Origin: Peptostreptococcus russellii
Lineage (GTDB): Bacteria; Bacillota; Clostridia; Peptostreptococcales; Peptostreptococcaceae
Assembly (NCBI RefSeq): GCF_003012055.1
Contig: NZ_JYGE01000002.1
Coordinates: 1-64,000, forward strand
Direction of reading: 5' to 3'
Length of the DNA stretch: 64,000 bases
A program made the position numbers and the translations under genes. Below the pieces are notes generated by a model. The model did no database searches. It had not been told where the DNA came from and saw only the letters and a list, made by a program, of their open reading frames with translations. Below are positions 46,228 to 47,314 of this stretch, piece by piece (position 1 is the stretch's first letter; every line of letters begins with the position of its first letter).

Positions 46228-46716
46228 ATGAATTTTAAAAAAATGAGGGCTAAGGATTTTTTAACATTATTGTTGATGACGGCTATTTCATCAATTATTT
46301 ATTTATTGCTTAAAAATAACATTGACGATAAGTCTATTATTACATTATTTTCTTATATTTCAATAGTTGCTGGAATTATAGTTTTAATCTTTGCTTTTTT
46401 AGAAAGCTATAATGGAGATCCATTTGTAACAGGAAAAACACAGACTATAGGAGTGGTTAATAGTTTTGTTGGTGCAGGTTTTGTCATTTTTTTAGCTGCC
46501 TTTAAATATGGTTTAATACAAAGTATAATAATTGTAAATATTTTTATGATAGTTAGTCGAGAATATGGTAGATTTTTAAAAAAAAGTTTTTTAAAAAAAT
46601 ATTTATATAAAGTTGGAACTATCATTAAAGTTTTAAATAACAATAAATATATAATATTATTTGACAATAAGGAAAAAAAGTATATTCAAAAAAAGGTGAA
46701 AAAAACGTATCAATAG
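46228..46716 (+). CDS. NfeD-like membrane protein, zero-frame product
   Basis: The 162-residue zero-frame product has an N-terminal hydrophobic part with four predicted helices (about 12-30, 40-60, 72-90, 94-110) and a basic region, then the start of an OB-fold, YKVGTIIKVLNNNKYIILFD. It stops with VKKTYQ. The rest of a typical NfeD C-terminal domain is coded in the -1 frame and ends at 46775. NfeD proteins act with stomatin/flotillin-type membrane proteins. GGGGGTGG precedes the ATG by 8 nt. As annotated the OB-fold would be incomplete, so this is either a frameshifted gene or one using recoding. Confidence 0.65.
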   Translation: MNFKKMRAKDFLTLLLMTAISSIIYLLLKNNIDDKSIITLFSYISIVAGIIVLIFAFLESYNGDPFVTGKTQTIGVVNSFVGAGFVIFLAAFKYGLIQSIIIVNIFMIVSREYGRFLKKSFLKKYLYKVGTIIKVLNNNKYIILFDNKEKKYIQKKVKKTYQ

Positions 46717-46775
46717 GTGATATGGTAAAAATAGTTGAAGTAAAAGGTAAGTATCTATATGTAGAAAAAATATAA
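46689..46775 (+). other. -1 frameshift heptamer and C-terminal extension of the NfeD-like gene
   Basis: A AAA AAG (46689-46695) lies in the exact phase for -1 slippage, since the zero-frame codons are AAA AAG. From G46695 the -1 frame adds 26 residues, GEKNVSIGDMVKIVEVKGKY and LYVEKI, before TAA at 46773. This ending has the GDxVKVVEVEG-like pattern of NfeD OB domains. An AAGGAAAA purine tract is about 13 nt upstream. The product would be 182 residues. The alternative is a one-base loss in a run of eight A. Confidence 0.6.
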
Positions 46776-46848: not shown

Positions 46849-46986
46849 ATATTCAATAAGTATAATTATATTTTTAAAATTATACAGGGGATTATTCCTG
46901 CAATATTATTGTTACAAAAAACTGAAACATTAGATTTAGAGGATTGTGAAAATCCTGAAGTATATGATATTATTAATAGAGCTTAA
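46849..46986 (+). pseudogene. possible gene remnant after the NfeD-like gene
   Basis: A 45-codon frame without start codon reads like the end of a protein (GIIPAILLLQKTETLDLEDC, then ENPEVYDIINRA) and stops at 46984. The 746-bp gap 46776-47521 has no intact gene; it holds this fragment, a 15-bp tandem repeat and a terminator. Confidence 0.3.
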
Positions 46987-47134
46987 ATGCAAGAAAGAGA
47001 AGGAATATTGATTTGCGTTAATAACTATTTAAAGATATTTAAAGAATTTATAACAGTTTTTAGCACAATAATTGATAATATTAAATTTTAATAAAATTAT
47101 ATTTTCAATAATAATTGTTGTACCTATTATAGAA

Positions 47135-47199
47135 TATATTAAGTTCTAGTATATTAAGTTTTAGTATATTAAGTTCTAGTATATTAAGTTCTAGTATAT
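47135..47199. repeat. four tandem copies of TATATTAAGTTCTAG
   Basis: The 15-bp unit repeats four times without gap (copies at 47135, 47150, 47165, 47180), with one T-for-C change in copy 2, and a partial fifth. No coding frame crosses it. It could vary in copy number between strains. Confidence 0.95.
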
Positions 47200-47287
47200 A
47201 ATAGGGAGCTATTATAAGAAATTAATATTTAGAGTTATTAATTTGATTTTGAAAAATACTATTAAAGTAAAAGGTATAAAAATTATG

Positions 47288-47314
47288 AAAGGGGAGCTAT
47301 TAGCTTCCCTTTTT
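47288..47314 (+). terminator. terminator-like hairpin
   Basis: AAAGGGGAGCT pairs with AGCTTCCCTTT with one G-U, loop ATT, followed by TT. No intact gene precedes it closely, which fits a decayed gene in the gap. Confidence 0.7.

Follow-up and report, generated by a model that had tools for sequence, protein, structure and literature searches.

Does the NfeD-like gene at the centre of this analysis make two proteins by programmed -1 ribosomal frameshifting, or has its reading frame been broken by mutation? The gene lies in the window, by which we mean the whole stretch of 64,000 nucleotides analysed here, part of a Peptostreptococcus genome of 2.08 Mb. A sequence-only reading had described a zero-frame protein that is cut within an OB fold and whose remainder is encoded in the -1 frame, had placed the join at a slippery A_AAA_AAG heptamer at 46689-46695, and had listed mutation and a phase-variable A-run as alternatives. 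The basic arrangement is as described. The zero-frame ORF encodes the transmembrane helices and the first part of a five-stranded OB-like domain, inside which it ends. From position 46671, directly after a TAA codon (46668-46670), the -1 frame has no stop until the TAA at 46773-46775 and codes for ...IGDMVKIVEVKGKYLYVEKI. Mutation, however, is now the reading that we favour: the gene is probably a dispensable and decaying NfeD paralogue that carries a frameshift mutation in a homopolymer. The features on which the argument rests are collected in the table.

Features of the broken NfeD-like gene and of its surroundings, in window coordinates
Feature	Position	Strand	Remarks
Zero-frame ORF of the NfeD-like paralogue	46228..46716	+	ATG start, 162 aa; aligned with six relatives
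-1 frame continuation with the remaining OB-like domain (GKKVYSKKGEKNVSIGDMVKIVEVKGKYLYVEKI)	46671..46775	+	HMM gain 23-34 bits; 54-57% identity to the closest relatives
A-run where the homology changes frame; most likely indel site	46673..46679	+	Peak of the crossing scan; in-phase A_AAA_AAG at 46674-46680
A_AAA_AAG heptamer of the sequence-only reading	46689..46695	+	In phase; downstream of the homology switch; 11.5 bits below the first run
Candidate 7-bp stem-loop 3' of the heptamers	46706..46724	+	-5.9 kcal/mol; 10 nt 3' of the second site
ABC-transporter N-terminal remnant with in-frame stop	46879..47082	+	tblastn E=2e-12, 38% identity over 58 aa

The assignment to the NfeD family, also proposed from the sequence, is supported by the relatives of the gene as well as by structure prediction. 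PF01957 (NfeD) is matched by five of six Peptostreptococcus relatives (best E 3.2e-7), and the AlphaFold2 model of the protein of a P. russellii relative (mean pLDDT 80.6) shows membrane-type helices followed by a five-stranded barrel. The top seven PDB matches of this model, none of which reaches an E value of 0.001, include the solved NfeD C-terminal domains 2exd, 3cp0, 2k5h and 3wwv as well as 8z5g, the E. coli NfeD-family protein YbbJ. In their transmembrane helices and subsequent five-stranded OB-like C-terminal domain the relatives thus resemble the NfeD proteins, which are short, carry an OB domain, are anchored in the membrane and act as partners of SPFH proteins; different from these, the gene in the window is a divergent paralogue that has no SPFH neighbour and is cut in the OB domain. 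Searched against PF01957, the window copy matches weakly, at E values of 0.049 for the whole protein and of 0.0041 for its C-terminal 59 aa, the latter below the curated cut-off, when the two frames are joined at the first A-run, whereas neither the copy joined at 46689-46695 nor the zero-frame product alone yields an NfeD match. That the family becomes detectable once the frames are joined at the first A-run speaks for the mutation reading.

In the intact relatives the protein of approximately 180-200 aa is encoded wholly in one frame, and this holds for seven of seven, namely six other Peptostreptococcus species and one metagenome-assembled genome (MAG); a split frame or frameshift site is found in none of them. 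The relatives from the same genus, among them the P. anaerobius type strain and strains of P. russellii, P. faecalis, P. canis and P. porci, share 33-43% identity with the window protein (six relatives). When the genome contigs were scanned with the read-through protein alone, no relative came up, whereas the scan with the alignment returned six loci, five of them in genomes already known as relatives. We favour mutation both over an assembly error and over recoding. Frame transitions that lack a conserved site have been attributed to pseudogenes or errors (PMC3711429), and the break in a homopolymer that is confined to one lineage, with intact orthologues elsewhere, is the pattern of a pseudogene.

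Where exactly does the frame change? We scored every possible -1 crossing with an HMM built from the six relatives. The zero frame alone scores 123.3 bits, the site at 46689-46695 scores 146.1 bits, and the maximum of 157.6 bits is reached by crossings at 46674-46680. The best crossing falls at the first A-run because the motif V-Y-S/T, which stands just before the last two strands in the relatives (VCS in the MAG), is encoded in the window as VYS in the -1 frame at 46680-46688 and hence upstream of 46689-46695. The crossing is therefore bounded on the left by the -1 frame TAA and on the right by the conserved VYS. The heptamer at 46689-46695 is indeed in phase with the zero frame, as had been pointed out, yet as a join it had to be rejected, since the homology switches 15 nt upstream of it. 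Likewise, the purine-rich 'AAGGAAAA', which had been taken for an upstream stimulator, turns out to be the 5' edge of the first A-run. Directly after VYSK the window protein contains three residues (KGE region) that are absent from all relatives, so that the length of this A-rich stretch has been altered more than once.

The -1 frame tail is clearly homologous to the C-terminal part of the relatives, as it adds its 23-34 bits to the match with the HMM of the six relatives. At the sequence level it is no less conserved than the head and free of additional decay: it shares 57% identity with P. anaerobius and 54% with P. russellii as compared to 43-45% for the zero-frame head, it contains no further stop, and its GC content by codon position (45/16/10) is coding-like. 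An undecayed tail counts against the mutation reading and implies that the break is very recent, that it is an assembly error, or that it is partly compensated.

Other signs nevertheless point to relaxed constraint on the gene. With a GC content of 22.2% the ORF is the lowest of 359 sampled ORFs (median 32.7%), and with six runs of at least seven A, corresponding to 12.3 per kb, it has the highest density of such runs in the sample; the six Peptostreptococcus relatives contain 0-1 such runs at a GC content of 25-32%. The sample covers 460 kb of the genome, and its 359 ORFs add up to 379 kb. Downstream of the gene lies the ABC-transporter remnant, whose aligned core (46900-47073) spans a stop codon. 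In P. anaerobius, too, the nfeD-like gene is followed by an ORF homologous to it, which is itself short. An intact canonical NfeD gene is present on another contig, where it immediately precedes the sole Band_7/SPFH gene of the genome, while the gene in the window has no SPFH/flotillin neighbour. The presence of an intact NfeD-SPFH pair elsewhere makes it probable that the paralogue in the window is dispensable.

A few further observations concern this neighbourhood. The ABC remnant sits in a gap of approximately 750 nt that contains no ORF of at least 40 aa on either strand. Between the remnant and the next gene, at 47135-47199, there is a 15-bp tandem repeat (TATATTAAGTTCTAG) of 4.3 copies with 96% matches, and well downstream of the broken gene, at 47287-47313, there is a strong terminator-like hairpin of 12 pairs with a 3-nt loop and a T-rich 3' arm. 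In P. anaerobius DSM 2949 an IS30-like transposase ORF, named by inspection only, abuts the short ABC-transporter ORF beside the nfeD-like gene, so that the neighbourhood looks disturbed there too. Scanning the window for Rfam families and tRNA genes yielded no matches.

Given this, how much can be said for programmed -1 frameshifting, by which one or both A_AAA_AAG heptamers would direct synthesis of the 162-aa and a full-length form? The gene shares with E. coli dnaX an in-phase A_AAA_AAG, and possible counterparts of the dnaX stimulators are a purine-rich sequence upstream (AAGGA at 46669-46673, which abuts the first heptamer and lies 15 nt before the second) and a small hairpin downstream. 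Moreover, it has two in-phase heptamers (46674-46680 and 46689-46695) 15 nt apart, and no other gene among the 359 sampled ORFs has two within 30 nt; this peculiarity, like the undecayed tail, favours recoding and has to be counted against mutation. However, the site is not conserved, the relatives need no shift, and the homology switch lies upstream of the site originally proposed. In-phase A_AAA_AAG heptamers are common in this genome, with 91 occurrences in 73 of the 359 sampled genes (20%). Their phasing is not independent evidence either: loss of one base from NAA AAA AAA G, of which the sampled ORFs contain 12 in phase, would leave an A_AAA_AAG phased for -1 slippage. The 7-bp stem-loop is weak and unconvincing as a stimulator, since the structure z score is -1.6 in windows of 80-100 nt and reaches -3.4 only when a window of 45 nt is tailored to the hairpin, and no significant or conserved structure was found 3' of the heptamers. 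Finally, the shiftiness of the dnaX site in E. coli has been ascribed by Atkins et al. to a sole tRNA-Lys that pairs weakly with AAG, and the same authors note that T. thermophilus may rely on polymerase slippage because it has two tRNA-Lys species (PMC5009743). Different from E. coli, the host genome encodes three copies of tRNA-Lys(CUU) in addition to tRNA-Lys(UUU). Taken together, these findings make programmed frameshifting, as it had been proposed for 46689-46695, very unlikely at either heptamer. Its narrower form, in which a recent, lineage-specific double signal yields truncated and full-length forms of an orphan NfeD paralogue despite an AAG-reading tRNA-Lys, is more improbable still.

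If the A-run had been misread in sequencing or misassembled, the gene would be intact in the organism; the position of the break in a homopolymer, the undecayed tail and the intact relatives speak for this. We regard such an error as a serious, if unlikely, alternative. Against it stand the ABC remnant and the AT enrichment, which are independent signs of relaxed constraint, and the quality of the assembly elsewhere. In a local search for split orthologues across the 460-kb sample, which recovers the window gene (a first scan was too insensitive for it), this gene was the only shifted one among the orthologues tested. The 109 loci (118.6 kb) confirmed as single-frame against their orthologues hold 81 A/T runs of at least 7 and 12 of at least 8, so that homopolymer errors are evidently not pervasive. 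Phase variation, in which slipped-strand mispairing at replication would switch the full-length protein on and off, fits a membrane protein with an undecayed tail and six runs of at least seven A in its gene. Runs of seven A are short and common, however (304 runs of at least seven A in the sampled ORFs), the relatives lack runs of this length with one exception, and NfeD presumably faces the cytosol and is no typical phase-variable surface antigen. We found nothing relevant in the literature on phase variation in Peptostreptococcus and rate this reading marginally below programmed frameshifting. Transcriptional slippage, which other bacteria are known to show at A/T tracts (PMC1088944, PMC3017870), could generate a mixed mRNA pool that includes the full-length message. 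Yet in many genomes selection against slippage becomes evident at tracts of about 9 A/T (PMC1088944), and the run in the window has only 7 A. Of all the alternatives this one appears the least likely.

The homopolymer mutation remains the best account of the locus because the relatives are single-frame, the crossing peak lies at the first A-run, the gene is enriched in AT and in A-runs, an ABC remnant lies next to it and an intact NfeD exists elsewhere in the genome. We envisage that an indel in the A-run at 46673-46679 has shifted the frame of a second, divergent NfeD paralogue. With the sequence as it stands, the product of this gene would lack the end of strand 3 as well as strands 4 and 5 of the OB-like domain and would be expected to be non-functional. 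The slippery heptamer would then be a by-product, as one-base loss from ..AA AAA AAA G leaves A_AAA_AAG, at which a -1 slip would lead back into the old frame. Such adventitious slippage may still yield some full-length protein, but no more than a little. We thus infer a mutation that is fixed in the DNA, a recent loss of function and dispensability of the paralogue. Indels in A/T tracts have been discussed as possible initial events of gene erosion (PMC3017870), and the gene resembles the homopolymer-frameshifted genes of other AT-rich bacteria, such as those of Blochmannia (PMC3017870) and of the GeneTack pseudogene and H-pseudogene classes (PMC3711429), in its single A-run break, its otherwise undecayed frames, its intact orthologues and its AT-rich context. 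It differs from them in that its run is shorter (7), which makes transcriptional correction less likely, and in that the host is a Peptostreptococcus and not an endosymbiont.

The locus illustrates that in AT-rich genomes an indel in an A-run of lysine codons yields a perfectly phased dnaX-like heptamer. As a phased heptamer can arise in this way, programmed frameshifting cannot be concluded from its presence together with overlapping frames, and placing the frame switch by means of orthologues is a simple and decisive filter.

Two minor observations were made beyond the window. ARAGORN called tRNA-Pyl(cta) genes within tRNA clusters in five stretches (in one case at 604-679 of its stretch); the loop CTTCTAA indicates that these are ordinary tRNA-Arg(UCU) with a misplaced anticodon. 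At approximately 161603-161914 of contig C4 of the genome analysed here, a minus-strand ORF made up of YFYTSILL repeats reflects a short tandem repeat in the DNA, which lies upstream of an intact gene.
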